A stretch of 64,000 nucleotides of DNA, from the NCBI RefSeq assembly GCF_000022325.1, contig NC_012034.1, positions 2,772,001-2,836,000 of the forward strand, given 5' to 3'. A program made the translations under genes and the position numbers. A model generated the notes under the pieces. The model worked only from the letters and a program-made list of their open reading frames with translations. It made no database searches and was not told the origin of the DNA. The stretch comes from Caldicellulosiruptor bescii DSM 6725 (GTDB lineage Bacteria; Bacillota; Thermoanaerobacteria; Caldicellulosiruptorales; Caldicellulosiruptoraceae). The number at the start of each line of letters is the position of its first letter. Position 1 is the stretch's first letter. Shown here piece by piece: positions 11,724 through 59,032 of this stretch.

Positions 11724-13109
11724 TTAATAGTCAAATTTATTAATTAATAGGACATAAGGATTTTGTTTAGCAAAACTTATTACCTCATCTGCAAAACCAC
11801 TTTTTGAGAATAACACATAGAACTTTTTACGATTATTAAAAATCATACTCTTTTCTATTAGGTTATTCAAAACAGACATATCAACTTTCTGGTTTCTCCA
11901 TTTGCATTCACCAAACAGGATGTTATTGTTGTCAAATGCTACTATATCAATTTCCTCTTCACGCTTTTTATAAGGATTATTTCCCCACCATTTACCTATA
12001 TTTTCAAAAATGAAGGGTAATTTTTTTGCCTTATTTAAAATCTTAAGATAATCCATGCAAATCTCCTCATAAACTTCTCCAATAAACTCATTCATAAAAG
12101 GTTTGATTTTGTTCTCGATAACTTCATCAATTAATCCCTGTTCAATCAAAGTCTTGTTGGTAAAAACAAATCGATACCAGAATCTAAAAAAATTATCCTT
12201 GATTTTGTAAATACTTTTTCTGCTTTTTGACTCTAACTTGAGAGGAGTTACCTTTTCAAGAATTTTTAAATCTATGAGTACAGAAATATATTTTGCACAT
12301 TTATCAATGTCAGTTCCCACTTTTGCAGATATCTCACTTAATTTACTGCTGCCTGTTGCTATTGCTTCTATTATCGAATTATACAAAGCAGGTTCTCTTA
12401 CTTCTTGCCTTAAAAGCAGTTTTGGTTCTTCATAAAGATAAGATGACTTGTCCAATATTTTTGTCTTGATGTTTTCGTATATGTCTTTTGTGCTGTCAAA
12501 GATACTCAAGTACTGAGGAATTCCTCCCAAAACTCCATATGCAATAACCTGATCTTCAAAACTATAATTAAGGAAAAATTCTCTACTCTCAAAAAATCTA
12601 AATGGCTCAACTATTAGTTGAGCAGTTCTTCGTCCATATAAAGGACTTTTATAACTTAAAACTTCCTTTTCGATGAAACTTACAGAAGATCCACAGATAA
12701 TCAAAAAAAGTTTGGTATTCTTTAAATGATGATCAATCAAATTTTGCAAAAGTGATGGTATACTTTTGTTTGTATTTGCTATATAAGGAAATTCGTCAAT
12801 TACAACAATCAATCTCTTATCCTTTGCTTGCTGTGCCAAAAATATAAATGCCTTTTCCCATGATTCAAATCTGCCCACTAACCCTTCAAGGTTAAAATAA
12901 GAGAGTACCTTATCTGAAAAAGATTCAAGGTTAATTTTATCATTGTATTCTTCAGCAACAAAGAATATTGAGGGTTTATTTTTGCAAAACTCAGTAAGCA
13001 GAGTAGTTTTTCCAACACGCCTTCTTCCATACACAACAACAAAGTGGAATTTGTCTTCATTATAAAGTCTGTTTAATGTTTCAAGCTCATACTTTCTGCC
13101 AACAAACAT
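11724..13109 (-). CDS. archaeal-type ATPase with DUF234-like C-terminus
   Basis: 461 residues. Walker A is GRRRVGKTT at about 28-36 and Walker B is LIVVIDEFPYI near 100. A winged-helix region (KLSEISAKVGTDIDKCAKYISVL) follows, then a C-terminal PD-(D/E)XK-like module with EIDIVAFD and LFGECKWR that resembles DUF234. The family (MNS clade of STAND/AAA-like ATPases) is common in archaea and thermophiles; its function is unknown, possibly defence- or mobile-element-linked. A paralogue lies at 53158-54549 and a truncated near-copy at 52460-52954. AGGTGA precedes the ATG. Three 15-bp direct repeats lie just upstream. Confidence 0.82.
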   Translation of the reverse strand: MFVGRKYELETLNRLYNEDKFHFVVVYGRRRVGKTTLLTEFCKNKPSIFFVAEEYNDKINLESFSDKVLSYFNLEGLVGRFESWEKAFIFLAQQAKDKRLIVVIDEFPYIANTNKSIPSLLQNLIDHHLKNTKLFLIICGSSVSFIEKEVLSYKSPLYGRRTAQLIVEPFRFFESREFFLNYSFEDQVIAYGVLGGIPQYLSIFDSTKDIYENIKTKILDKSSYLYEEPKLLLRQEVREPALYNSIIEAIATGSSKLSEISAKVGTDIDKCAKYISVLIDLKILEKVTPLKLESKSRKSIYKIKDNFFRFWYRFVFTNKTLIEQGLIDEVIENKIKPFMNEFIGEVYEEICMDYLKILNKAKKLPFIFENIGKWWGNNPYKKREEEIDIVAFDNNNILFGECKWRNQKVDMSVLNNLIEKSMIFNNRKKFYVLFSKSGFADEVISFAKQNPYVLLINKFDY

Positions 13110-16962: not shown

Positions 16963-17125
16963 GTTTTTAGCCTCCCCTTTGGGGATTGAAACACGTAAAA
17001 AATAAGGAGTATGTAAGGGGTTTTTTGCAGTTTTTAGCCTCCCCTTTGGGGATTGAAACTAATTTTGATATTTTTCATAGTTAACACTTATCAGAGTTTT
17101 TAGCCTCCCCTTTGGGGATTGAAAC
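16963..17125 (+). CRISPR. three-repeat CRISPR array, variant repeat
   Basis: Repeats of 30 bp lie at 16963, 17030 and 17096, with spacers of 37 and 36 nt. They read GTTTTTAGCC then TCCCCTTTGGGGATTGAAAC, differing from the other arrays at base 5 (T for G). All three repeats share the variant, so it was copied during acquisition at this leader. The array stops abruptly 55 bp before the gene at 17181. Confidence 0.92.
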
Positions 17126-20651: not shown

Positions 20652-20681
20652 GTTTGTAGCCTACCCTTTGGGGATTGAAAC
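20652..20681 (+). CRISPR. solitary CRISPR repeat at a gene junction
   Basis: A full 30-bp repeat (GTTTGTAGCC, then TACCCTTTGGGGATTGAAAC) differs from the main-array type by one base. No second repeat or leader is within 3.5 kb. It separates a gene lacking its 3' end from a gene lacking its 5' end. Confidence 0.9.
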
Positions 20682-31919: not shown

Positions 31920-34900
31920 GTTTGTAGCCTTCCCTTTGGGGATTGAAACTCAATCTCCAAAACCTTTATATACTTAAAATCATAAAGTTTGTAGCCTTCC
32001 CTTTGGGGATTGAAACTCTTTACCATATGATAAGACTTTCCGCTTCCAGGTTTGTTTGTAGCCTTCCCTTTGGGGATTGAAACTTTATGATTTGTGTTTT
32101 TATTTCGAACTATGAGGAAGTTTGTAGCCTTCCCTTTGGGGATTGAAACATAAAAGCAATTAGTTTGTAACTAAGGTCATCTTTGAGTTTGTAGCCTTCC
32201 CTTTGGGGATTGAAACCAGCTTCAATCTCAAGTTTGTCTTGTTCATAATTGGTTTGTAGCCTTCCCTTTGGGGATTGAAACCTGCTTGGTTGCTTCAAGC
32301 TCTAAAACTTTGAGCTCGTTTGTAGCCTTCCCTTTGGGGATTGAAACTATGCATTATTTATGACAGAAATTTAGATAACGAAGGGTTTGTAGCCTTCCCT
32401 TTGGGGATTGAAACCAATATCTCGTATCTTCTCACTTGCCTTGTCTGTTGGTTTGTAGCCTTCCCTTTGGGGATTGAAACTATCTTGCCTTAGTAACAAT
32501 TGCCTTCTTTTGGTTCGTGTTTGTAGCCTTCCCTTTGGGGATTGAAACACTTTATTATCGTTCACAAGGTAGATAGATTTGCTCGGTTTGTAGCCTTCCC
32601 TTTGGGGATTGAAACGTGTACACATCTTTACCTTTTTTCAGATTATATACTGTTTGTAGCCTTCCCTTTGGGGATTGAAACACTTCTCGATTATTTTTGA
32701 AAATAACTTTTCCTGTATGTTTGTAGCCTTCCCTTTGGGGATTGAAACATGAACCTAGCATTCTTACAACTAAAAAACATAAATGTTTGTAGCCTTCCCT
32801 TTGGGGATTGAAACATTTTTCGACTTTGTTTGCATCGGTAAAGGATACAAGTTTGTAGCCTTCCCTTTGGGGATTGAAACTTCTTTTTAGGTTTTGTTGA
32901 TTGTTTTGAAATTTTAGTTTGTAGCCTTCCCTTTGGGGATTGAAACAAATTAATAGATGTAGAAGGTGAACCTTTCAAATATGAGTTTGTAGCCTTCCCT
33001 TTGGGGATTGAAACTTGTGTCTCATTCATTCTATCACTTCCTTATCCAACCAGTTTGTAGCCTTCCCTTTGGGGATTGAAACACTCTTTCTCTTCTCTTT
33101 CTCTCTCTTGCATCATCACGTTTGTAGCCTTCCCTTTGGGGATTGAAACCACGATAAGAAAAATGACGTAAGCAAATATTGTGCTGGTTTGTAGCCTTCC
33201 CTTTGGGGATTGAAACTAATTTCCTCCTTTCTAAATTTTAATCCCTAAATGGGTTTGTAGCCTTCCCTTTGGGGATTGAAACACAACTTTGAAGAAGCTC
33301 CACAGACCACGCAGAACGGTTTGTAGCCTTCCCTTTGGGGATTGAAACCTTAATGAGTTCGTTTTGCTTACGGATGGTTTCCAGTTTGTAGCCTTCCCTT
33401 TGGGGATTGAAACAGTGTTTGGCTATCAGCTGTGTTAGTTTGGTATGGTGTTTGTAGCCTTCCCTTTGGGGATTGAAACAAATTTATTGCTGATGCATTT
33501 AGTTCTTTAGGAAGTGTTTGTAGCCTTCCCTTTGGGGATTGAAACAAATTTTGAGTGAAATCTTTAGTGAAAGTGATTTGAGTTTGTAGCCTTCCCTTTG
33601 GGGATTGAAACTCATCTGCAACATGTTGTGCGCAGTTTCAATGAAATGTTTGTAGCCTTCCCTTTGGGGATTGAAACTATATATAACTTTGATATTTGTT
33701 ATTTTTAGACTTTTTGGTTTGTAGCCTTCCCTTTGGGGATTGAAACTCTTTTCCAAATCCACCGTCCCATCCTGTGGCACAGTTTGTAGCCTTCCCTTTG
33801 GGGATTGAAACATTGTATCATAGCTACATTTGTGTAAACACCTAAAGGTTTGTAGCCTTCCCTTTGGGGATTGAAACATTGTATCATAGCTACATTTGTG
33901 TAAACACCTAAAGGTTTGTAGCCTTCCCTTTGGGGATTGAAACCCCACTATCTTATCGTAGTAAGTCACAATAGCCGTGTTTGTAGCCTTCCCTTTGGGG
34001 ATTGAAACATGTAACCACTGATTCTAAACGTACTACTTAAAACTGTTTGTAGCCTTCCCTTTGGGGATTGAAACTTTCATAAAACCTCCTATGATTCTTA
34101 ATAATAGTCTTAGTTTGTAGCCTTCCCTTTGGGGATTGAAACTTTTTTCATTTTTCCATATCTCTGTCCAATATTCCCGTTTGTAGCCTTCCCTTTGGGG
34201 ATTGAAACAGATATAAAGATTTACTTTTGCTGTTATAAAATCATTGTTTGTAGCCTTCCCTTTGGGGATTGAAACATATCTCTTATCATAGACTTACAAT
34301 CATCATAATTGTTTGTAGCCTTCCCTTTGGGGATTGAAACCAAACTCTATTACTCTTTGTTCCAATTCTTCAGCCCGTTTGTAGCCTTCCCTTTGGGGAT
34401 TGAAACATAGCTCAGGTTTGTATAATACATCACCTGATTCAGGTTTGTAGCCTTCCCTTTGGGGATTGAAACAGATATACAAGCTTATTCTTGCCGTTAT
34501 AAAATTATTCGTTTGTAGCCTTCCCTTTGGGGATTGAAATATGAGAGTAACGCTATTAGAATGGTAATAAAGTGGGTTTGTAGCCTCCCCTTTGGGGATT
34601 GAAACGGTACAACAGCAAAAAATCCTCTTTATATGGCAAATGTTTGTAGCCTCCCCTTTGGGGATTGAAACAGGCTATCACAAGCCTTATCACCAGCGCC
34701 AATATAAAGTTTGTAGCCTCCCCTTTGGGGATTGAAACTTTGAATTTGACACAAGCAGTAACAGGAAGTGTAAATTGTTTGTAGCCTCCCCTTTGGGGAT
34801 TGAAACAAATTATTAAAGTTCTTCAAACAAAAGAAGAAATTGGTTTGTAGCCTCCCCTTTGGGGATTGAAACATGCCTTTAAATTGTAACCTCTCAATCC

Positions 34901-35402
34901 TTCTACAAGTTTGTAGCCTCCCCTTTGGGGATTGAAACGTAAAAATGGAGATACAATAAATGGAATACTTAATATGTTTGTAGCCTCCCCTTTGGGGATT
35001 GAAACAATTATAGTGGTAGTATACCTAATACTTTTCGTGTGTTTGTAGCCTCCCCTTTGGGGATTGAAACATAGAATATGTCTGCTTGGTGTATCGCAGG
35101 ATTTAGTTTGTAGCCTTCCCTTTGGGGATTGAAACTTTGTTCCAGCATTGTAAACTCCACTAGCTGGTGAATAGTTTGTAGCCTTCCCTTTGGGGATTGA
35201 AACAAGAAAAGCGAGGCTGTGAGGTTTTTAATGCAGAATGTTTGTAGCCTTCCCTTTGGGGATTGAAACTTACATTTTCTCTACCAAACTTCTCTGTTAT
35301 TCTTTATTTGTAGCCTTCCCTTTGGGGATTGAAACCTGGTAACCTGACTGTTGAATACTTGTCAAAAAGATTGTTTGTAGCCTCCCCTTTGGGGATTGAG
35401 GA
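31920..35402 (+). CRISPR. main CRISPR array, 53 repeats and 52 spacers
   Basis: The 30-bp repeat is GTTTGTAGCC + TTCCCTTTGGGGATTGAAAC, with spacers of about 34-39 nt. Repeats 1-40 and 49-52 have CTTCCC; repeats 41-48 and 53 have CTCCCC. Repeat 52 starts with A and the last repeat (35373) ends GATTGAGGA, the usual distal decay. One spacer is tandemly duplicated (33812-33847 and 33878-33913). The final eight bases ATTGAAAC would be the crRNA 5' handle. It is next to the I-B cas operon and transcribed away from it. Confidence 0.98.
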
Positions 35403-36113: not shown

Positions 36114-36719
36114 TCATAATTTCAAATACATTCCGTGCAGAAGTGAACTGCCATCCACCTGAAGAGGTGGAGGCTTCTTTGGCTCTTTTACATCATTTCT
36201 TGGGTCCTGTACATCTACAAGTATACTTACATAGTACTTGCCTGCTTTTGTTTTCGCAACTGTTGCAGATTTTATTTTCCCTTCAAACTTTCTGTGAAAT
36301 ACTGTTTTTATTCCACCTTTTATCTTTGGCAAGTAAGTAAACCCTTTTTCAAAATCTACTCTAATTGTCTCATTACCATTTTTGGGTTGCTGGTTGTTTG
36401 TTGTGTATGACTGCTTATATTTCTTTTTCTTAAACTTCGGCATTCTAAAATGTTTCGGATTTTTGAAATGGTCTCTGAACGCCTTTTCCTGCTCAAGTTG
36501 AACATTTGCCAGAGCAAGACTGTCTACTTCTCTCACGAAAGGGTATTCTTTTTTATATCTTGCTGGGGTTATTCTTGGAACCTTTCTACCCTGTCTCAGT
36601 GCTTCTAACTTTTCTTCTAACATCTTGTTCCACACAAATCTACAACAGCCAAAAGTCTTTTCAAAAAATTCTTCCTGTGCTTTATCAGGGTATATCCGAT
36701 ACCTATATGCTTTTAGCAT
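36114..36719 (-). pseudogene. tnpB: TnpB N-terminal half (IS200/IS605), truncated
   Basis: 201 residues. The opening LKAYRYRIYPDKAQEEFFEKTFGCCRFVWNK is the TnpB helix-turn-helix/wedge start. The frame then runs into sequence containing a CCACCT/AGGTGG hairpin like an element right end, ending LLHGMYLKL. The RuvC-like catalytic residues and the zinc ribbon of a roughly 370-400-residue TnpB are missing. The gene overlaps the end of tnpA, as usual for IS605-type elements. It cannot be an active RNA-guided nuclease. Confidence 0.82.
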
Positions 36720-37120
36720 TTTCTTTTTTCACCTTGACTCTCGATATATCTTCTAATTACCTCAACTGGAGCACCACCACTTGTCAGCAAACAATAACTT
36801 CTTGACCAAAAATATTCCTGCCATAGTTTTTGCTTAATTTCAGGAAATTCTTTTTTTATGAGTCTTGAAGAGGCACTTTTATAAGCATTTATAAACTTAG
36901 AAAGTGGTGTTGTAAAAGCTGCCTTGAACAAAACATGAATGTGGTCTTTATCATGATTCCACTCAACTATGGTTATGTTGTAATTGGGTTGAATGTACTC
37001 AAAAATTTCTTTTAGTCTTTTTGAAATTTTCTCATCTATCACATCTCTTCTGTATTTTGTCACTAAAATCAAATGGTAGTAAAGAAGAAATACTGAATGT
37101 TTATTTGAGTCAAATTTCAT
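36713..37120 (-). CDS. tnpA: IS200-type Y1 transposase TnpA
   Basis: About 135 residues from the ATG at 37120 (MKFDSNKHSVFLLYYHLILVT). It has the HUH pair in DHIHVLFKA and the catalytic Tyr in VIRRYIESQ. TnpA moves single-stranded DNA at stalled forks or lagging strands. All key residues are present, so it may be functional. A longer frame to 37171 lacks a ribosome site. The element lies directly against the 3' end of the exported-protein gene at 37184. Confidence 0.88.
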   Translation of the reverse strand: MKFDSNKHSVFLLYYHLILVTKYRRDVIDEKISKRLKEIFEYIQPNYNITIVEWNHDKDHIHVLFKAAFTTPLSKFINAYKSASSRLIKKEFPEIKQKLWQEYFWSRSYCLLTSGGAPVEVIRRYIESQGEKRKC

Positions 37121-37183
37121 AATCATCACCAGTTTTATTATATACCGAAACTGAATATTTATCAACCGCAATTCATCTCCGTC

Positions 37184-38281
37184 TTATAGAAGATGAAGAC
37201 TTCTTGCGAAAAGCCTGTTAACAGCCGGGTCATATTTAAGTGTACCATCGCTATTCTTAACAAGGTAACTCTGGGATGTAACTTTATAGCTCATACTGTC
37301 GGTTGTAACCTGAGGTTTTGCTCTTGGTGGGATACCATCATATGTCCTGTAGTGTATCCAGCCATCAGCTTCCTGCAGGACGAGGACTACCTGAGCACCT
37401 GCGTATGGTGTTGCGTTCGAAATCATTGCATAATCTGCAAGCATGGACGCTGAGCTTATCTTTGAACCATATTGTGTTTGTGCTATGTTTATGGCATCTG
37501 CCAGAGTCTGTCCCTTCATATCTTTGAACCTAGAAAGTGCGCTCCAGACCTGCGTGATTGCGTTTGGACTGACATTAGAAGGGTTATATGAATCCGCCAC
37601 TGCACAAATCTGTCTTGCTATTGAGTTCTGCCATGGCTTGTACAAAATCTTTGTACTGGATGTAACAGGTACATAATCTCTGTCAGGTGGGAAATCCTTA
37701 TCAGACTGCACTGCGCCGGTCTGGGAAAATCCCCAGTATCTGAAGTATCCTCTAACTCCATTGCCAGGTGAAGAAAGATGATAGTACCCATCTGCACCGA
37801 GTGTGGCGTAGAAGTATCCATTAGACACCTGCTTGAATCCCGGTTGTGCTTTTGTGAAGTTGTCCGCCACATCTTCTGGAATACCGTATATTGCATAACC
37901 CCTGTCTATCGTCGCTTCTACGTTGAGAGGAATGATGTAGTATGTTTTATTGTCTTCTATTCTTATTCCATAACCGTACACACCGGATTGGCACTTTTGC
38001 TTGGCATATGAAGAAAGGTCGTCGAATGCTGAACTGGTTGACGATATTTTGATTTCCTTAGAAACCCCATAACTTTCTGCGCACTTATCACGTGTTACAC
38101 CTTTGTACTCACTGAAGTTTGAACCACCTTCATAAACCCCATCTCTCTTGTCTGAAAAATTATCAGCCATTGTTTTAACTACTGGTGGAAAAGCGGGAAA
38201 CAAGCTAAGCAAAAGTGAGACAACAACTAAAAAAGAAAGAGCTTTGAATAAGCTCTTTTTACGTCCTTTCAAGTTTCTCAC
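37184..38281 (-). CDS. exported protein of unknown function, 3' end possibly cut by IS200
   Basis: 365 residues with a signal peptide (KALSFLVVVSLLLSLFPAFPP). The mature part has no recognised domain; it is rich in Tyr, Ser and Gly and contains YGYGIRIEDNKTYYIIPLNV and ITQVWSALSRFKDMKG. It lies 8 nt downstream of an SLH-domain gene, so both probably form one operon. The reading frame ends LFARSLHLL about 13 nt before the IS200 gene region. The natural C-terminus may therefore have been replaced. Confidence 0.68.
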   Translation of the reverse strand: MRNLKGRKKSLFKALSFLVVVSLLLSLFPAFPPVVKTMADNFSDKRDGVYEGGSNFSEYKGVTRDKCAESYGVSKEIKISSTSSAFDDLSSYAKQKCQSGVYGYGIRIEDNKTYYIIPLNVEATIDRGYAIYGIPEDVADNFTKAQPGFKQVSNGYFYATLGADGYYHLSSPGNGVRGYFRYWGFSQTGAVQSDKDFPPDRDYVPVTSSTKILYKPWQNSIARQICAVADSYNPSNVSPNAITQVWSALSRFKDMKGQTLADAINIAQTQYGSKISSASMLADYAMISNATPYAGAQVVLVLQEADGWIHYRTYDGIPPRAKPQVTTDSMSYKVTSQSYLVKNSDGTLKYDPAVNRLFARSLHLL

Positions 38282-38289
38282 CTCTCATC

Positions 38290-39972
38290 TCACTTGATAT
38301 TCGGGTCAGGTTTTGCATACAGAACTTTTGCTTTCTCGAAATAACCTTTGTATGTGGGGTTCGTTGTGCACCAGTAACCCACATTGTCTTCTCCATTGAG
38401 GTTGACATACCATATACATATATCACCGTACCACTTTACAATACCATCCGCCGGGAGTTTGGTTTTTGGGTTGGTGTAATACTTTGCGTCAGCTATTGCC
38501 TCTTTCTTGTATGCAAGAGGAACCAGCAGATAGTTAAAATTAGCTCCATGATACCATGGAAAACGGTAAAATGGTTTGTCTTCCCAAGGAAGAATAGAAC
38601 CATAAACCCCGGGTATAAAAAATTCTAGACCCGCAAAGGAATATCTAACAAAGGAATTTCCAATTGAATATTTTGAAGCATAATTGATAGAATCCTTAAT
38701 GAAAGCCAGCAACTTCATTTCGTCCATTCTGAAGGTTAATACTGGTTCACCAAATTCAGGAGTATCGCTACTTCTAAGTTTCCTGTACCTATTATCAATT
38801 ATTATTGGTACAAAAGTTTGTTTATCGCTGTCCCACGAGTATACAATATCTATTACCTGTTTGTAATCATTTGTTATTGGTTCATAAGTTCGTTTATAGC
38901 TGTTCCACAAGTACACAATACCTGTTTTCATATCCACATAACTTCTCAGTTGCCATTTAAACTCGTCATATACTTCTCGTTTTGACTCATCGAACACTCT
39001 TGAAATCATTGCAACTGCTTCTGCTCTTGTGAGCATCTTTGCAGGATTGAATCTTATCTTTGACACGTACAGTGGTGACATTTCAGGAGTTATGATACCA
39101 AGGTCGGCAAGTTTTAACATTGGTTCTCTGTACGCCTGCGGTATTTTTGTGTAATCATCTGCCATCTGTGCAAACCTTGTATGGTCAAGTGCATACTTGC
39201 GTGGATGGTTCTTGATATATTCTTCAAGATACTTGTTTGCACGTGGGTCGTAAGCCGAATTCCATTCTCTGTCACCAGAATCCTTGGTACGAGTTATCCC
39301 TGGGTAAGTTACAAAGTAACGACCTTTTGGTTCAAAAGGTAACTGGTAGTAATACCCCTTGTATTTTTCGTCATACTTTAAGTACTCAGTTTTAGGAGCA
39401 ATTTTCAGCTTATCAGGACATTTCTTTGCAAAGTCCTGCAGGAACTTGGCATAATCATCTCTCATGACATAACCTTTTAGTACGTCCCAGACATACTTTG
39501 TCTTGACCCTCCCATCTGCGTAGTAATAGTCAATTATGAGCAGGTCAGACCAGTACAGCACAAAGTCAAGGTTTGTCATATAGTCATACAGGTAACCTCT
39601 ACCTCTCAGTGTTAAATCCCATGGTGTGAGTATTTCGGTTTTGACAGGTATATTCTTCTTTCTCAGTTCAGGCACAGCATTTATGAGCTTCCACACAATG
39701 TAACTTGCCTGTGCTCTTGTAAGTGGCTTGTCTTGTTTGACCTCACCCGGTATCAAGCCCATAGAAACTGCCTTTCCCCAGTAGTCCAGAGGCTTGTCTG
39801 GTTTTACCTTTGCACCTATTAAGAGCGATGTTACAAACTCGCCTGCTGTGATGTAGTCTATTTTGTTTATTGCTGCCTGTACCTTCTGTGTGATTGTTCC
39901 AGCCTGTGCTACTGGGAAGGCAAAGCTCAAAAGCAGACTCAGGATGACTGCAAAACTCAAAAGTTTTCTCAT
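38290..39972 (-). CDS. S-layer-homology (SLH) domain exported protein
   Basis: 560 residues. The signal peptide is LLSFAVILSLLLSFAFPVAQA. Two SLH-type modules are visible: DYWGKAVSMGLIPGEVKQ with LTRAQASYIVWKL (about 60-95), and LADLGIITPEMSPLYV with LTRAEAVAMISRVFD (about 285-330). SLH modules anchor proteins to pyruvylated cell-wall polymers. An internal tandem repeat (YLWNSYKRTYEPITND / YSWDSDKQTFVPIIID) follows. The C-terminal part is unrecognised and may be the functional head. It is preceded by the long attenuator-like leader at 40066-40220. Confidence 0.78.
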   Translation of the reverse strand: MRKLLSFAVILSLLLSFAFPVAQAGTITQKVQAAINKIDYITAGEFVTSLLIGAKVKPDKPLDYWGKAVSMGLIPGEVKQDKPLTRAQASYIVWKLINAVPELRKKNIPVKTEILTPWDLTLRGRGYLYDYMTNLDFVLYWSDLLIIDYYYADGRVKTKYVWDVLKGYVMRDDYAKFLQDFAKKCPDKLKIAPKTEYLKYDEKYKGYYYQLPFEPKGRYFVTYPGITRTKDSGDREWNSAYDPRANKYLEEYIKNHPRKYALDHTRFAQMADDYTKIPQAYREPMLKLADLGIITPEMSPLYVSKIRFNPAKMLTRAEAVAMISRVFDESKREVYDEFKWQLRSYVDMKTGIVYLWNSYKRTYEPITNDYKQVIDIVYSWDSDKQTFVPIIIDNRYRKLRSSDTPEFGEPVLTFRMDEMKLLAFIKDSINYASKYSIGNSFVRYSFAGLEFFIPGVYGSILPWEDKPFYRFPWYHGANFNYLLVPLAYKKEAIADAKYYTNPKTKLPADGIVKWYGDICIWYVNLNGEDNVGYWCTTNPTYKGYFEKAKVLYAKPDPNIK

Positions 39973-40065
39973 GGCTATATCAACTCCTTTTGCTAAAGTT
40001 TTTTCTCATTATAGTTATACCATGATTTTGAAATTTACTGCACAGAAATTTTGCCTGCTAAAAAA

Positions 40066-40220
40066 CAAAAAACCACGGCAATTTACTTCCTAACTTTTGC
40101 CGTGGCTAACTTCCTTTTGATTTTACTTACCTTCGTTTTACTCATCTAAAATTTTTGACACTCTATATAAACACCTAAAAGATACATTTGTGGCAATTGA
40201 TTCTGTATATATTATACCAC
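40066..40220 (-). promoter_or_regulatory. promoter plus attenuator-like leader of the SLH operon
   Basis: Read on the minus strand: TTGCAA, 16 bp, TATAAT; then the conserved CTTTTAGGTGTTTATATA / GAGTGTC element; a 20-codon ORF (40145-40083); and a terminator hairpin CCACGGCAA / TTGCCGTGG followed by six T (near 40070-40105). The SLH gene starts about 95 nt further on. A near-identical copy precedes the XRE operon at 41980-42150. The rest of 39973-40245 holds nothing else that I can name. Confidence 0.75.
40083..40145 (-). CDS. 20-residue basic leader peptide (copy 1)
   Basis: ATG to TAA encodes MSKTKVSKIKRKLATAKVRK, with nine Lys/Arg of 20. The 3' codons and stop lie inside the terminator hairpin, so ribosome position would decide whether the hairpin forms. 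Copy 2 (42007-42069) differs by one conservative change (Val to Ile). The ribosome site is weak, so translation is uncertain. Confidence 0.5.
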   Translation of the reverse strand: MSKTKVSKIKRKLATAKVRK

Positions 40221-40245
40221 TGTAGTTTGAAATTGCAACAGTTAT

Positions 40246-40800
40246 TTATTCTGTTTCTTTGTACTTTTCAATAAGCTCAAAAAAGCTATAAGTTGAGAGT
40301 TTCCTTTTTCTCAGTTTCATCTCATCTAATATTTGCTGTCCTTCTTGAAAGCTTATGAGTTTTCTCTGATATGCAAGGTATAGAATGGTTTCTGTGGTTA
40401 TCAGCGGTGGTTGGTCTTGTTGAATATGCGGCAATACATCTTTGAGATTGTTACTTGCAAGAGTGCCGTTTAACATTTTTGCTATTACTATAGCAGCAGC
40501 TTCTCCTTTGCCTATGGAATCTGCACTTTTTCGTTCTGTTAACCTTGAAAACTCATCCTTGTAAGGGCTTAATTCAGGAATCTCTTTGATTTCATATTGC
40601 CGCTTCTTTATTCTCTGGTCTATGTTTAGAAAAACAAATCTGTAGAAGCGGTATTTTTGTAATTCCTTTATTTCATCCAGAACGACTCTGGGAATAACGA
40701 TATTGCCAGCAAAAAGTTTGTCTATTATATCAAGCCGATTTATCCATGAAAATGAACAGACACAATCGTTATCAAAGACTATAGGCATCTTCAAGTTCAT
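40246..40800 (-). CDS. PIN-like domain protein of an XRE/ImmA operon
   Basis: About 184 residues from the ATG at 40800, which has AAGGTGA upstream and overlaps the end of the preceding gene. PIVFDNDCVCSFSWINRLDIIDKL has the PIN-type first acidic strand, IPRVVLDEIKEL the second acidic helix, and SIGKGEAAAIVIAK the central GxGE/D pattern. LASNNLKDVL fits the next strand. PIN domains are usually ribonucleases. Placement as third gene after an XRE regulator and an ImmA/IrrE protease suggests a regulated toxin or effector. Confidence 0.7.
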   Translation of the reverse strand: MNLKMPIVFDNDCVCSFSWINRLDIIDKLFAGNIVIPRVVLDEIKELQKYRFYRFVFLNIDQRIKKRQYEIKEIPELSPYKDEFSRLTERKSADSIGKGEAAAIVIAKMLNGTLASNNLKDVLPHIQQDQPPLITTETILYLAYQRKLISFQEGQQILDEMKLRKRKLSTYSFFELIEKYKETE

Positions 40801-41539
40801 TAATTTCACCTTCTGTGTCTTCTTCAGGTTCAAATATCAGATGTGCGTATCCACCTTCTATGAGCAGTTCCTCATATTTGCCATAAGATATCCTACCGGC
40901 GTCTAAAAGTTTTTTGGCAAGTTCTGCGTACGGAGAATAAACCTGTATGTCTTTGTCAGACGTGTCTTTATACAATTGTGTTGAATAACCGTATTCTCTT
41001 GCTTTTTTGATTACATCTTTGCTAAAATCTTTTTCCTGTTTTTCTGTAATCAAATTTAATTCCTTTAATCTGATAAGCATGAACTGATGACTTACTCCAA
41101 AGTATTGTTCCAGAAAAATAATATCACTTATGTCGGGAGTTTTCCCTTCTGTCCTTTTAAAAAACATGTACTTGACACCTTCTTCTGGCAGTAGAAAATT
41201 AATGGCAAAAATATTTGCTTCCCTTTCTTCCGGATTATCTTCGACAAATTTTCTGATAGGACATACTCTGCTCACAGCACCTTTGCTGTATTTGTAATGG
41301 TAATACTCATGAGCTGCTGTAAATCTTTGGTGCCCAAGTGTTTTCTTTGAATTGACAACTATTAAAGCAGCTCTGCCTTTTCTTACAAACAGACCTGACA
41401 TTTTTTCGCTCATTTCCATAAAAGCAAGAGAAACCCCTTCTATCTCATGGAGAACTTTGAAAATGTCAACTGCCTCGTGTGATGCAAGACCAAGAGTTTT
41501 CCTTGCTTCTGTAGCCTTTATCTCAGCCAAATTATTCAT
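40772..41539 (-). CDS. ImmA/IrrE-family metallopeptidase
   Basis: 255 residues. FTAAHEYYHYKYSKG contains HExxH (His77, Glu78, His81), and EREANIFAINFLLPEEGV supplies the third zinc ligand; this is the COG2856/IrrE pattern. Such proteases cleave an XRE-type repressor to switch on genes, as ImmA does in ICEBs1. Here the gene overlaps the XRE gene upstream by 8 nt and the PIN gene downstream, so the three are translationally coupled. Confidence 0.88.
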   Translation of the reverse strand: MNNLAEIKATEARKTLGLASHEAVDIFKVLHEIEGVSLAFMEMSEKMSGLFVRKGRAALIVVNSKKTLGHQRFTAAHEYYHYKYSKGAVSRVCPIRKFVEDNPEEREANIFAINFLLPEEGVKYMFFKRTEGKTPDISDIIFLEQYFGVSHQFMLIRLKELNLITEKQEKDFSKDVIKKAREYGYSTQLYKDTSDKDIQVYSPYAELAKKLLDAGRISYGKYEELLIEGGYAHLIFEPEEDTEGEINELEDAYSL

Positions 41540-41897
41540 TTTTTATCTCCTCCAATTTTTTGTACATCATGTCAAGGTTTGCTACAAACTGATTGGCAAA
41601 GGCAATAACTTCTAAATCTTCGTCGGAAATCTCATCTGCTCTAAAGTTCATCGTAATCTGCTCGTCTGTATTTTGTTCTTCACCCAGTAGATAGTTATAG
41701 TCACAGCCATATAATCTGGCAAGTTGCAGGAGAATATCAACACTAACTTCACGTTTACCATTTTCATAATGTGAAAGTTGTTCCTGAGTAATACCCAGAT
41801 ATTTTGCAACCTGTTCTTGGGTAAAACCTCTCTGTTTTCGCAGCTCTTGCAGACGTTTACCTATTTTCTTGTATACCTCTTCCTTCACGGTCATCAC
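41532..41897 (-). CDS. XRE-family repressor
   Basis: 121 residues. The helix-turn-helix is RKQRGFTQEQVAKYLGITQEQLSHYENGKREVS (about 20-52), followed by a short acidic tail. It is the probable substrate of the ImmA/IrrE protease encoded next, with an 8-nt overlap. It likely represses its own operon. Confidence 0.88.
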   Translation of the reverse strand: MMTVKEEVYKKIGKRLQELRKQRGFTQEQVAKYLGITQEQLSHYENGKREVSVDILLQLARLYGCDYNYLLGEEQNTDEQITMNFRADEISDEDLEVIAFANQFVANLDMMYKKLEEIKNE

Positions 41898-41979
41898 TCC
41901 ATATAACTTTTTGTTATAAATACACTTCTTCCTTACTCAATTATACCACATTTGTTATCATAGTAAACAGTTTTTTCTG

Positions 41980-42150
41980 CTAAGAAAAACAAAAAACCAC
42001 GGCAATTTACTTCCTAATTTTTGCCGTGGCTAACTTCCTTTTGATTTTACTTACCTTCGTTTTACTCATCTAAAATTTTTGACACTCTATATAAACACCT
42101 AAAAGTTGCATTTCTGGCAATTGGTTCTGAATATATTATACCATTGTAGC
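41980..42150 (-). promoter_or_regulatory. promoter plus attenuator-like leader of the XRE operon
   Basis: Near-identical over about 170 bp to the SLH leader at 40066-40220: TTGCAA/TATAAT promoter, conserved element, 20-codon ORF (42069-42007), terminator stem with six T (about 41991-42030). A second promoter plus element lies behind it at 42170-42245. A separate hairpin (CCACAGGC / GCCTGTGG, about 42270-42305) ends the Rpn gene upstream. Confidence 0.75.
42007..42069 (-). CDS. 20-residue basic leader peptide (copy 2)
   Basis: Same length, start and stop as copy 1 at 40083, with Ile for Val at residue 18. The stop codon lies in the loop of the terminator hairpin. Two copies with a conservative change are compatible with, but do not prove, selection on the peptide. 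Confidence 0.5.
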   Translation of the reverse strand: MSKTKVSKIKRKLATAKIRK

Positions 42151-42318
42151 CTGAAATTGCAACAACAAAAAATTTGACACTTTATATAAACACCTAAAAG
42201 CTACACTTCTGGCAGATATTTTTAAGTATATTGTATCTCATTGTTTGTTCTATTTCAATGCTAACCTGCTAAAAAACAAACCCACAGGCTGTTTTTAGCT
42301 GCCTGTGGCTGAGAAATT

Positions 42319-43281
42319 TCAATTTGCAAGCTCTTTCCTCAGTTTTCTTATTTCTTCAATAGCAAGTTCTGTTACTTCTGCTATGTCCTCATCACTTGTT
42401 CCTTTTAATATCAACTTTTTAGCTATCTCAACTTTTGTCCTGTACTCTCCCTGTTGAATTCCCTGTTGAATTCCTTGTTGAATTCCCTCGTTAAACTTCC
42501 TTTCCAGTGACTCATCTAAAACTCTTGCAATGTTTGACACAAACTCACCCATTTTCTCTCCCCCCTGCAAAAGAGTTCTGGTTATCTTCTCAATCTCTAT
42601 CCTTTGTCTTTCGTTTAGCCTCGGTTCTACTATGTTCTTTACAAGAATTGCAAATCTCTCTCTGTTGTATTTGCCCATTTTCTCAAGTACAGATTTTATC
42701 TTGTTTAACCTTATTACAAGTTCTTTTGTGTCGTTCCTTGCCTGTTCAAGATAGAACACTACTGGAACAAGACTATCCTCTTCCTTGTCAAAAAGTCCTT
42801 CTGCATCTATCTTTGATAGGTCTACCAGCTCATATCTGAATATGTTATCCTTGAAGATTTCAAAAGCTTCAATAATATCCTTTGTCACATCCCATTTCTC
42901 TTTCAGACCGTTGTATGTGACTATTGGGATTATTGCTGGAAGTTTCTTTACACCTTCTCTAATCTTCTTTGCCCATAGAAGGATTATGTATCTCAGTAGT
43001 CTTTCTGGCATGTCTTCAGCTACTGTTGACTGGTTCTCAATTATAATGTAAAAATATACTTCCCTTTCTTTTAGTCTTGCCTTTGCTATGATGTCTGCTC
43101 TTCTTTGCTGGAAATTTTCATCTACAAACTCTTTGTCGGCAAGTTCTATTGAGTCTTCTTGAATATCTTTTGCCCAACTGTAGCCTATTACATCCCTGAC
43201 AAGAAAGAGGATATCTTTTGGGTTTTCAAACAAAAGCTTGAAAGTTGAATCGTGTTCCTTTGATGGTAGATTGCTATTCAT
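42319..43281 (-). CDS. Rpn-family nuclease (PD-(D/E)XK, transposase-like)
   Basis: 320 residues. HDSTFKLLFENPKDILFLVRDVI is the Rpn/PDDEXK_2 opening. ENFQQRRADIIAKARLKEREVYFYIIIENQS carries the Asp and Glu-x-x-Gln catalytic pattern, and PAIIPIVTYNG is typical. Rpn proteins are DNases linked to recombination. The C-terminal tail has a GIQQ triplet repeat (GIQQGIQQGIQQGE) before a helical hairpin. GGGGGAG precedes the ATG. A paralogue is at 46522. Confidence 0.85.
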   Translation of the reverse strand: MNSNLPSKEHDSTFKLLFENPKDILFLVRDVIGYSWAKDIQEDSIELADKEFVDENFQQRRADIIAKARLKEREVYFYIIIENQSTVAEDMPERLLRYIILLWAKKIREGVKKLPAIIPIVTYNGLKEKWDVTKDIIEAFEIFKDNIFRYELVDLSKIDAEGLFDKEEDSLVPVVFYLEQARNDTKELVIRLNKIKSVLEKMGKYNRERFAILVKNIVEPRLNERQRIEIEKITRTLLQGGEKMGEFVSNIARVLDESLERKFNEGIQQGIQQGIQQGEYRTKVEIAKKLILKGTSDEDIAEVTELAIEEIRKLRKELAN

Positions 43282-43604
43282 CTGTCTACTCCCCCTTTTT
43301 TAGTTTCTACTCAGACTTTGCGGGGGAGAGGAACTCCTTTCACTTTTATTATACCACACCTTGTTTGAAAATTTGACACTCTGTATAAACACCTAAAAGT
43401 TGTATTTCTGGCAATATATTTTAGTATATTGTATCACATCTGCAGCTTATTTTCAAGAGCTCAATACAGCAAAGCAACAAGAATTCGAATTACAAGCATT
43501 GCAAGCATTAAGAGGAATAGGATAACTTCTGCAGGAGCAGTTTTAGAGTTTGAATTTCTTCCCGAATACAAAGCCTTGATGGTCTTTTTGGCATTTTGAA
43601 CACC

Positions 43605-43925
43605 CCGAAAAAACAAAAACCGCAGAGAATCTGCGGTTTGATTTTTATTTTTTACATTTTTGTAGACGCATTTTGAATATATTGTTCCTGGTTGTTTTTA
43701 TTACATTCCTGTTCACCTATAAACACTATGCCTTCGTGTTTTGTTTTCGGGATGAATTTCTCATCCCTAGGCAGCAGGGCGCCAACACGAAGGAAAAGCC
43801 CCAATGCGCTTCTATATTTTACGTCCCGAAGCTAGGGAGAGGCTCGCTGCCACAGCCCGGTATGCTTTTAAGGTGCATACCACACCTTACTTGCTCTCTT
43901 CGATGAGTATTCTAAAAATCCTCTA
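43605..43925 (-). ncRNA. candidate structured non-coding RNA with own promoter and terminator
   Basis: The minus strand has a TATAAT at 43936-43931 with a weak TTTTCA 17 bp upstream. About 300 nt follow, and then a perfect 10-bp terminator (AAACCGCAGA / TCTGCGGTTT at 43630-43639 and 43617-43626) with T-runs. The middle (43700-43885) is clearly GC-richer than its surroundings. It holds CCTTCGTGTT/AACACGAAGG (43731/43784, 10 bp), GGGATGA/TCATCCC (43749/43761), GGTATGC/GCATACC (43859/43875) and GGCAGC/GCTGCC (43770/43846). The last would make a pseudoknot. No convincing ORF lies in it. I could not assign a known RNA family. Confidence 0.6.
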
Positions 43926-43964
43926 CTTTTATTATACCCTTCTTAGCTTAATTTGAAAACGTAT

Positions 43965-44040
43965 TTTTTATTTTTACATTTTTGTAGACGTATTTTTCAT
44001 ACACTTTCCCTGACAGTTTTTATTATATACTCTAACTTTA
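43965..44040 (-). promoter_or_regulatory. promoter and conserved leader element (second family)
   Basis: On the minus strand TTGCAA, 17 bp, TATAAT is followed by AAAAACTGTCAGG and, further on, GTCTACAAAAATGTAAAAAT. Further copies lie at 43645-43715 and 47640-47725, each followed by a terminator-like hairpin. Confidence 0.6.
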
Positions 44041-46125: not shown

Positions 46126-46402
46126 AGTTTGATGCCAGGATTCTCAAGAGTTTTAGATACTGGCACAAACCTTGTTTGGGCTTTTGAGCCAGCTGTTTTG
46201 TAGCTGACATGTTTTTTCTGTCGCATCTCTATGTAATCGTTTACAATCACCTTCTCCACCCTGTTGCCTGTTCCAACACTCAAAGCCCGGCTCGAAAGCC
46301 CTTCTTGGATTTGGCTACTGTCTGCAACCCCTGAGTATATCTGTGTTTTTGCCGCACTCCTGTGTCCTGTTTGAGCTTTGGACTCAGCTTTTTTGCAGAC
46401 AC
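46126..46402. repeat. long intergenic repeat, copy A
   Basis: About 280 bp aligned by eye with 47725-48010, in direct orientation. Shared blocks include TCAAGAGTTTT, TGTTTGGGCTTTTGAG and AATCGTTTACAATC, and an inverted GGCTCGAAAGCCC. The two copies flank the second Rpn gene. Frames of about 100 codons exist on the minus strand, but the shared blocks fall in different frames, so I do not call a protein. Confidence 0.6.
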
Positions 46403-46521
46403 AATTGAGAGATCCTTCGCAATTGGATTTTATCACTATCTAATAGCGAACACCTGTTAGCTACACTTTCCCCCTGTCCCTGAAAACAAAAGGCAGGGTT
46501 TAACCCCTGCCTCGAAATCTA

Positions 46522-47725: not shown

Positions 47726-48010
47726 CACAATTTGAATGCAGGTTTTTCAAGAGTTTTGACTACTGGCGAAAGTCCTGTTTGGGCTTTTGAGATGGCTGAA
47801 TTTGCAACTGATATGATTTTTTACCCACCTTGTCCTTATGCAATCGTTTACAATCTCTCTTCCCCATTTTATTGCTTGCTCTACCACCCAAACCCCGGCT
47901 CAAAAGCCCTTTTCGGACTTGTCTGCTTCTCGCAAAGCCAGTTGTATTCTTGCTTTGAGTCATGTACCAAAGTCCACTTTGGGCTTTCGAGCTACCCTGC
48001 GCCTGCTGGA
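47725..48010. repeat. long intergenic repeat, copy B
   Basis: Homologous to 46126-46402. The block GGGCTTTTGAG near 47784 can pair with CTCAAAAGCCC near 47900, and copy A keeps the pairing with a G-U change. A short third copy of its first 50 bp lies near 44045. From 48011 to 48206 I see nothing further. Confidence 0.6.
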
Positions 48011-48206
48011 GTTTCAGAAAGTTCAATTGCTTCATTTTCATTTTAGAATAGCGAACATTTGTTGGGGTGAATAAAAGCAAAACTAATTATCAACGGTTTC
48101 AGTTGCTAAGGAAAGTCTTTAACTGGCTTTTTGAATAGGTCTGGCTCCCGGCGAACAGGGGTTGTTTAAGGAAGACTTTTGTGTTTACTACATTTTTTGT
48201 TTTTTC

Positions 48207-56425: not shown

Positions 56426-59032
56426 GTTTGTAGCCTCCCCTTTGGGGATTGAAATAGGCTTTCTAAAATTTCTTCAACGTCTTTTTTGCTTGGTTTGTAG
56501 CCTCCCCTTTGGGGATTGAAATAAAAAGCTGAGGAAAGTGATTTTCTATCAGGACGAGTTTGTAGCCTCCCCTTTGGGGATTGAAATTTGCTAAAAATGT
56601 CGCAAAAACCGTTATACCAGCTGGTTTGTAGCCTCCCCTTTGGGGATTGAAATTGCCTTATTGATGAATTATCTATGATAGATTTAAAGTTTGTAGCCTC
56701 CCCTTTGGGGATTGAAATAGGGAATTGTAAAGAAGGAAAATACCAGCTGTGATGGTTTGTAGCCTCCCCTTTGGGGATTGAAATCAATATTTTCATAGCT
56801 TTCATACACATAATTTTCAGTTTGTAGCCTCCCCTTTGGGGATTGAAATATAATTTTCATTTGTACATAAATGGTGTTGAAGCAAGTTTGTAGCCTCCCC
56901 TTTGGGGATTGAAATAATCCTTTTAACCTCATGGGTCGTGTAGGGAGTAGGTTTGTAGCCTCCCCTTTGGGGATTGAAATTCTTAAGACCACTTTTTGTT
57001 TTAACAAGTTTAACAGTTTGTAGCCTCCCCTTTGGGGATTGAAATTTAACCTCTTGTCTCCATCAGGAACTGGAGCAAGAGTTTGTAGCCTCCCCTTTGG
57101 GGATTGAAATCGGGGATGTTTTTACCTGCCCAATTTTCGATGACTAGTTTGTAGCCTCCCCTTTGGGGATTGAAATATTTCACAGATGATGCAGTTAGGC
57201 GTTCTTACAATAGTTTGTAGCCTCCCCTTTGGGGATTGAAATGCTGGCTGGGTTCTGTTAGTTTTTTTCAGTGTCGCCCGTTTGTAGCCTCCCCTTTGGG
57301 GATTGAAATGCAAAAAATCAAGTACTTTTTTTATTTTTTAAAGTTTGTAGCCTCCCCTTTGGGGATTGAAATGCATTAATTCTTTTTCTGTTTCAGCTAA
57401 CATAGCCGGTTTGTAGCCTCCCCTTTGGGGATTGAAATATTTTTTGAATGAGATAATGCAGAAGACGAAAGGAGAGTTTGTAGCCTCCCCTTTGGGGATT
57501 GAAATAAGAAATAGAGAGAAAAAGAAAAGAAGAACAACAAAGTTTGTAGCCTCCCCTTTGGGGATTGAAATTTTGCTTTGCTTATCCCTTTAGCTTTGCT
57601 GCTTACTAGTTTGTAGCCTCCCCTTTGGGGATTGAAATCTATTTCAGTAGTTGCTAATGGTTTGTCAACGTCTTGTTTGTAGCCTCCCCTTTGGGGATTG
57701 AAATTTTTACAATTACTATTATACTCGAAATTTTTATTTTGTTTGTAGCCTCCCCTTTGGGGATTGAAATTAACCGGCTCTCCTGTTACCCTTATAACAC
57801 TTGTTCGTTTGTAGCCTCCCCTTTGGGGATTGAAATGTGCGGTATCTGGAAAAGATTTTGTAATTCAAGATTGTTTGTAGCCTCCCCTTTGGGGATTGAA
57901 ATAACGTTTTAAAAAGGATGGCTGAAGGTGAACGTGTTGTTTGTAGCCTCCCCTTTGGGGATTGAAATTGGAGAAATCAGGTAAACTGTCCATAACGTCC
58001 TCAATGGTTTGTAGCCTCCCCTTTGGGGATTGAAATGCATTAATTCTTTTTCTGTTTCAGCTAACATAGCCGGTTTGTAGCCTCCCCTTTGGGGATTGAA
58101 ATATTTTTTGAATGAGATAATGCAGAAGACGAAAGGAGAGTTTGTAGCCTCCCCTTTGGGGATTGAAACTAATATAGCAGAGCTATACTTTGTAGTGTTT
58201 CTTCAGTTTGTAGCCTCCCCTTTGGGGATTGAAACTTTTCATCTATGATGTCCATCAACTTTTCAACAGTGTTTGTAGCCTCCCCTTTGGGGATTGAAAC
58301 ACAATGTACATTAATCTGTCAGGGAATATTGCTTTTGTTTGTAGCCTCCCCTTTGGGGATTGAAATAAGAAATAGAGAGAAAAAGAAAAGAAGAACAACA
58401 AAGTTTGTAGCCTCCCCTTTGGGGATTGAAATATATTTGACCTTCTTACCACCTCAATCACCCTCTTAGTTTGTAGCCTCCCCTTTGGGGATTGAAATTA
58501 ACCGGCTCTCCTGTTACCCTTATAACACTTGTTCGTTTGTAGCCTCCCCTTTGGGGATTGAAATGTGCGGTATCTGGAAAAGATTTTGTAATTCAAGATT
58601 GTTTGTAGCCTCCCCTTTGGGGATTGAAATTGTGAAATATTCTGTTTTGTTTCTTCTTCAAATATAGTTTGTAGCCTCCCCTTTGGGGATTGAAACCATC
58701 GAGTAATGCGGACTGCAACTTCTCATAATCATGTTTGTAGCCTCCCCTTTGGGGATTGAAACCACACCTCACCTTCTTTTAACTGCTTTTCAATTTCCTG
58801 GTTTGTAGCCTCCCCTTTGGGGATTGAAACACATAAGTAAAAACGGTAAAACTAAGTAGAACAAAAAGGTTTGTAGCCTCCCCTTTGGGGATTGAAATAA
58901 GAGCTTGAAGATTATATAAAACAAAAAAACACAATGTTTGTAGCCTCCCCTTTGGGGATTGAAACTGACAATTAAAGCATATCAAAATGCCTCAGTAGCA
59001 TAGTTTGTAGCCTCCCCGTTGGGGATTAATAA
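56426..59032 (+). CRISPR. second large CRISPR array, 40 repeats and 39 spacers
   Basis: 30-bp repeats GTTTGTAGCC + TCCCCTTTGGGGATTGAAAT or ...GAAAC, with spacers of about 33-38 nt. Repeats 1-26, 30-34 and 38 end in T; 27-29, 35-37 and 39 end in C; repeat 40 (59003) is degenerate. Five spacers occur twice (spacers 15, 16, 17, 21, 22 again as 25, 26, 30, 32, 33), showing a block duplication. No cas genes adjoin; the I-B operon 25 kb away probably serves it. Confidence 0.98.

Follow-up and report, generated by a model that had tools for sequence, protein, structure and literature searches.

Why do two different operons on the minus strand of the Caldicellulosiruptor bescii DSM 6725 genome begin behind almost the same leader? 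Within the window, the 64,000-nt stretch of DNA analysed here (NC_012034.1, positions 2,772,001 to 2,836,000), segments 40061-40240 and 41985-42164, each of 180 nt, share 95% identity, which bears out the near-identical duplication reported in a preliminary description of the sequence. The parts that it listed are likewise present in both leaders: a TTGCAA-N16-TATAAT promoter, which carries an extended -10, and an ORF with nine Lys/Arg in 20 codons whose stop codon lies in the hairpin loop, the two peptide copies (MSKTKVSKIKRKLATAK(V/I)RK) differing by Val/Ile. The downstream SLH-protein and XRE/ImmA/PIN operons are also as it stated, with weak SLH and PIN matches. Beyond this pair, the conserved element behind the promoter recurs twice in the window, once in tandem upstream of the second leader and once before a gene for an Rpn-family nuclease (Table 1).

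We assign the SLH-like gene to the Athe_2464 type by its pairing with a gene for an Athe_2463-domain protein; the two form an operon of the Athe_2464/2463 kind, which does not imply identity with that very operon. The Athe_2464/2463 operon of C. bescii encodes extracellular proteins for which strong enrichment on xylan and xylose has been reported, ~16-fold in abundance for Athe_2463 on xylose/xylan (PMC5865380). Searching all 2,931,662 bases of the genome (3 contigs) recovers a second locus with the same order of leader, XRE-ImmA-PIN, leader and SLH-like gene at nearly equal spacing, together with partial leader copies. Identity among the leaders of the different loci in this genome is 89-95%, against 71% over the whole aligned XRE-ImmA-PIN stretch, a difference that points to gene conversion of the leaders or to recent copying.

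Table 1. Positions of the leader parts, neighbouring genes and associated repeats (window coordinates unless a locus is named; unit 1 precedes the SLH-like operon and unit 2 the XRE operon)
Feature	Position	Strand	Remark
Athe_2463-domain protein gene	37184..38281	-	NF047340, E=3.7e-34
SLH-like surface protein gene	38290..39972	-	SLH E=0.003, below Pfam cut-off
SLH-like operon's own extended -10 (TGGTATAAC)	40014..40022	-	downstream of terminator
Unit 1 intrinsic terminator, hairpin ~40073-40106 + T-run	40061..40106	-	compensatory changes among 20 variants
Unit 1 20-codon Lys/Arg-rich ORF	40083..40145	-	overlaps micro-ORF stop; not conserved
Unit 1 micro-ORF, GTG TCA AAA ATT TTA GAT GAG TAA (MSKILDE*)	40138..40161	-	starts within E
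Unit 1 conserved element E, CTTTTAGGTGTTTATATAGAGTGTCAAA	40154..40181	-	0 mismatches; E alignment
Unit 1 promoter, TTGCAA-N16-TATAAT, extended -10	40211..40238	-	same type in P-E alignment
PIN-like protein	40246..40833	-	weak match
M78 / ImmA-IrrE peptidase	40772..41539	-	
XRE-family regulator	41532..41897	-	
XRE operon's own promoter, TTTACT-N16-TATAAT with TG	41940..41967	-	downstream of terminator
Unit 2 terminator, hairpin ~41997-42030 + T-run	41985..42030	-	
Unit 2 20-codon ORF	42007..42069	-	Ile copy
Unit 2 micro-ORF (MSKILDE*)	42062..42085	-	
Unit 2 element E	42078..42105	-	0 mismatches
Unit 2 promoter, TTGCAA-N16-TATAAT, extended -10	42135..42162	-	
Tandem E copy, 95 nt upstream of unit 2	42173..42200	-	promoter TTGAAA-N17-TACAAT at 42230-42258
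Rpn-family nuclease / putative transposase	42319..43281	-	
E copy before Rpn gene	43372..43399	-	promoter at 43428-43456; no terminator between
IscB-like / long RNA-like repeat sites	L031:12919-14334, 12000-12400; window 46130-46440, 47760-48070	-	
tRNA-adjoining candidate structured RNA	L076:5660-5900, L080:4995-5234, L085:4875-5115, L086:5623-5860, L088:5125-5365		

What repeats is a promoter (P) together with an element of 28 nt (E, consensus CTTTTAGGTGTTTATANAGARTGTCAAA). At a threshold of E<1e-6, with several orders of magnitude between units and noise, a sequence profile identifies 54 P-E units, which are spread over 10 of the 12 Caldicellulosiruptor genomes and include eight in the genome of the window; by the same profile G005 and G010 have none. 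E was not found by BLAST in 49 other genomes from the same family, class and phylum, nor in viral contigs, plasmids or phages, and 84,980 species yielded one chance match in a collection that may omit the window's own relatives. On the strength of these searches the family appears restricted to the genus. We found no published description of the repeat and no literature on C. bescii small RNAs; 5'-end RNA sequencing of this organism has been published (PMC8579813).

Apart from a few truncated copies, E keeps a constant orientation behind the promoter and does not occur away from the promoter module. Tandem units are common, at a spacing of 95-98 nt, and in the alignment the promoter spacers diverge while the -35, the -10 and E are kept. 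The majority of units lie upstream of a co-oriented gene, a position that hints at a role in cis. What follows E varies: at least four unrelated hairpins with T-runs (GCCACGG, the type in this window, GCCACGA, GGCAGGT and CACCGG), a long RNA-like repeat, or no terminator, as before the Rpn gene. The GGCAGGT hairpin precedes a 34-aa membrane ORF (MLKHPLVVVFLIWYIPLALFKITAILKGEDDSEF) that is conserved in L076, L080, L085 and L086, directly after the P-E unit and hairpin; P-E, hairpin, Shine-Dalgarno sequence and ORF follow one another there with no space for an intervening promoter.

The preliminary description regarded the hairpin as Rho-independent, and both hairpin and T-run are present, the hairpin being conserved with compensatory changes. 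In the GCCACG hairpin, compared across 20 variants, pairing of the outer stem reaches 99.3% and 7 cells are compensatory; the covariation of this stem is 0.246 against 0.165 in shuffles, 0 of 500 of which reach the observed value. Outside the original pair, the two parts on which that description relied fare differently, the hairpin being kept and the 20-codon ORF not. The hairpin also occurs without P-E, before SLH genes in L169 and L170 and before XRE genes in L171 and L181, where it would end whatever lies upstream; at other SLH loci without P-E the terminator is unrelated or missing (L165, L173).

Downstream of the hairpin both operons carry promoter motifs of their own. All 21 SLH loci (11 with P-E, 10 without an intact P-E) have an extended -10, TGGTATAAC(T/A)ATAATGAG, ~50 nt upstream of the start codon of the SLH gene, counting two that miss the regular expression through one indel or end variation and in which the motif was seen by eye. 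The XRE promoter is kept in L171 and L181, which lack P-E, and another family has TTGCAG-N17-TATATT. All promoters and terminators here are consensus or comparative calls. As judged from these motifs, the SLH and XRE genes would not depend on a promoter upstream of the terminator; the 34-aa ORF loci may.

E itself contains (A/G)TG-TCA-AAT-TTT-TTA, the start of a micro-ORF (MSNFL...) that is 7 codons long in 23 copies. The start codon is (A/G)TG in 54 of 55 E copies. Of 55 changes counted in codons 2-5, 39 affect the third position, and 6 of the 12 at first positions are synonymous Leu, counts that exceed the number of independent events, as the copies are related. At the codon level the micro-ORF thus appears conserved, unlike the 20-codon ORF. 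Its start codon is preceded at 10 nt by AGGTG, which resembles a Shine-Dalgarno sequence; at least four copies have AGCTG instead, and others AGATG. Between this site and the start codon TGTTTATA is strictly conserved; because translation alone does not account for it, a site bound by protein, in DNA or in RNA, is possible.

Taken together, each P-E unit is probably a separate short transcription unit that ends at its terminator, and not an obligatory attenuator, since the hairpin occurs without P-E and the SLH promoter lies downstream of the hairpin in every locus. P would be a sigma-A-type promoter that starts the unit, and E a conserved transcribed segment, from ~+10 to +50, with a ribosome-binding-like site and the start of the micro-ORF. 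A variable 3' part and the intrinsic terminator would follow, giving an RNA of ~85-150 nt. Before the SLH-like and XRE operons this RNA would end ahead of the operon's own promoter, so that the hairpin would mainly separate two transcription units that only read-through would link, and the near identity of the copies would stem from duplication and/or gene conversion. Comparison of the sequences delineates the family and its limits, the hairpin, the downstream promoter motifs and the lack of conservation of the 20-codon ORF; that the RNA is made, terminated and translated, and that E is what selection keeps, whether as a small RNA or as a translated leader of short length, we infer. Several observations run against this reading. 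At the 34-aa membrane-ORF loci P-E looks like a true leader, the E copy at 43399 has no terminator between it and Rpn, and the prevailing position of units ahead of co-oriented genes hints at action in cis. The Shine-Dalgarno-like site is altered in several copies, and the conservation of TGTTTATA exceeds what translation alone would explain.

E could instead be a DNA operator just 3' of the promoter, bound by some regulator whose regulon the P-E units make up; this is compatible with other readings, and we hold it to be possible though doubtful. E is conserved without indels and without a consensus RNA fold (RNAalifold, 47 sequences), and the Shine-Dalgarno sequence varies more than the core of E, TGTTWATA-N-ARA-RTGTCAAA. 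E includes the half-sites TGTTTAT and TGTCAAA, 13 bp apart, and the tandem copies, 95-98 bp or about nine helical turns apart, flank a second promoter. However, the distance of E from the -10 varies by ~3 nt, E is confined to the promoter module but for truncated copies, and the third-position bias suggests selection at the RNA level. The regulator would not come from the XRE-ImmA operon: XRE was rejected by its distribution, as G003, G004, G009 and G011 have E and no ImmA homologue (E<=1e-8).

It is rather unlikely that the units are leader-peptide attenuators in which ribosome behaviour on the E micro-ORF sets terminator read-through into the gene. The nearly invariant start codon, the third-position bias and the recurrent length of 7 codons would fit, as would the mostly co-oriented downstream genes and the four loci in which hairpin, Shine-Dalgarno sequence and 34-aa ORF follow P-E without a promoter between. 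The order of promoter, short ORF, intrinsic terminator and gene is also that of Firmicutes uORF or leader-peptide attenuators such as vmlR (PMC9226507; for a survey of premature terminators see PMC2965389). P-E differs from these in that one leader is common to unrelated genes, in the presence of several unrelated hairpins, and in the SLH-like and XRE operons having their own promoters 3' of the hairpin. Moreover, we found no anti-terminator or alternative helix with covariation, and a common anti-terminator is impossible given that four or more unrelated hairpins follow E; the Shine-Dalgarno-like site is lost in several copies. Unlikely, too, is a genus-wide regulon in which the shared MSNFL... 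leader would answer one common signal and control read-through into accessory genes as unrelated as those for tiny membrane proteins, Rpn nucleases, XRE-ImmA-PIN modules and surface proteins that respond to sugars.

A non-autonomous repeat to which promoter and hairpin are incidental, one that resembles a MITE or has spread through gene conversion, would explain why copy number varies from none in two genomes to more than ten in G008, and why copies are clustered and near-identical within a genome, with scrambled remnants in L171 and L172. Against this stand the compensatory changes in the hairpins and the divergence of spacers around a preserved -35, -10 and E. We consider this reading quite improbable. 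Neither terminal inverted repeats nor a target-site duplication were seen in the alignment of units.

Least of all does the original proposal survive, translation-coupled attenuation by stalling on the Lys/Arg-rich 20-codon ORF over the overlapping terminator, which is now very improbable: the ORF is intact in near-identical copies only (both in the window, two in L031, and L070, L072, L074 and L083), where its start overlaps the micro-ORF stop (ATGAGTAA) and coupled translation is conceivable, but it has 18 codons in L075, 12 in L071, 7 in L087, L088 and L089 and 5 in L090, is absent in L032, L084 and the GCCACGA family, has no Shine-Dalgarno sequence, and is followed by promoters downstream of the hairpin. 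In divergent copies it is truncated, frameshifted or missing, and the A-richness of the linker accounts for its many Lys/Arg codons.

Short terminated units have parallels elsewhere. Multi-copy trans-acting small RNA genes of bacteria have their own promoter, an unstructured conserved 5' part, a variable 3' part and an intrinsic terminator, with several paralogues per genome. P-E units share the promoter, the 5'/3' layout, the terminator and the paralogues, and at the sequence level have the own promoter and terminator that mark a small-RNA gene. They differ in the start codon and coding-like variation of E and in that no complementary target was found; a 24-nt pattern with <=3 mismatches matched only E copies and scattered 3-mismatch sites. 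Correia elements and BOX elements are promoter-bearing intergenic repeats. Like them, P-E is a repeat confined to one genus that carries regulatory signals, varies in copy number and has clustered and decaying copies, but its functional parts are kept while the spacers diverge, and terminal inverted repeats were not seen in the alignment of units. Terminators in BIMEs have been discussed (PMC2965389). P-E is an undescribed example of short terminated transcription units, or leaders, spread as intergenic repeats. What one pair suggested to be a peptide attenuator is, after comparison, better read as a repeat family of terminated units, one member of which precedes an Athe_2464/2463-type operon; the part worth testing is the codon-conserved micro-ORF in E and not the 20-codon ORF.

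Several pairings and resemblances of E were considered and dropped. The outer stem UUUGCCA/UGUCAAA, taken from single folds, has no covariation and scores like shuffles. A helix between the Shine-Dalgarno region CUUUUAGGU and AUCAAAAGG, which precedes the terminator, varies by wobble alone, and on visual inspection changes of E in other families are not matched in the partner. UUGCC in E can pair with GGCAA of the terminator in some copies but not in L084, L087 or L032, and so short a helix would not compete with the terminator. Likeness of E to dif, CIRCE, NrdR and sigma-H/E sites was judged by eye to be chance resemblance, and Rfam 15 gave no match to the region at gathering score, returning only sub-threshold, mostly eukaryotic families.

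The loci also hold other repeats and mobile elements. The long RNA-like repeat (AACAAATGTTCGCTATT...GGGTAGCTCGAAAGCCC...) occurs at many sites in the genus, several times directly 3' of a P-E unit, and L031 encodes an IscB-like protein (RRXRR + HNH); the repeat may be a guide-RNA-like relic, and for its L031 copy no meaningful Rfam match was obtained. At five loci a P-E unit lies beside tRNA-Trp or tRNA-Arg and is followed by ~200 nt with strong conserved hairpins, a candidate structured RNA. The window further encodes an IS200-like transposase (TnpA; 36114-37171, minus strand), adjoined by a short ORF whose match to an IS605 OrfB/TnpB protein is confined to the N-terminal HTH, and several CRISPR arrays with CRISPR-DR2 repeats at 16963-17125, 20652-20681, 31920-35269 and 58140-58965 (minus strand). 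Another intergenic repeat (AAAATGCGTCTACAAAAATGTAAAAAT), at 43641-43674 and 43963-43996 of the window and also in L169 and L171, adjoins terminators and accessory genes.
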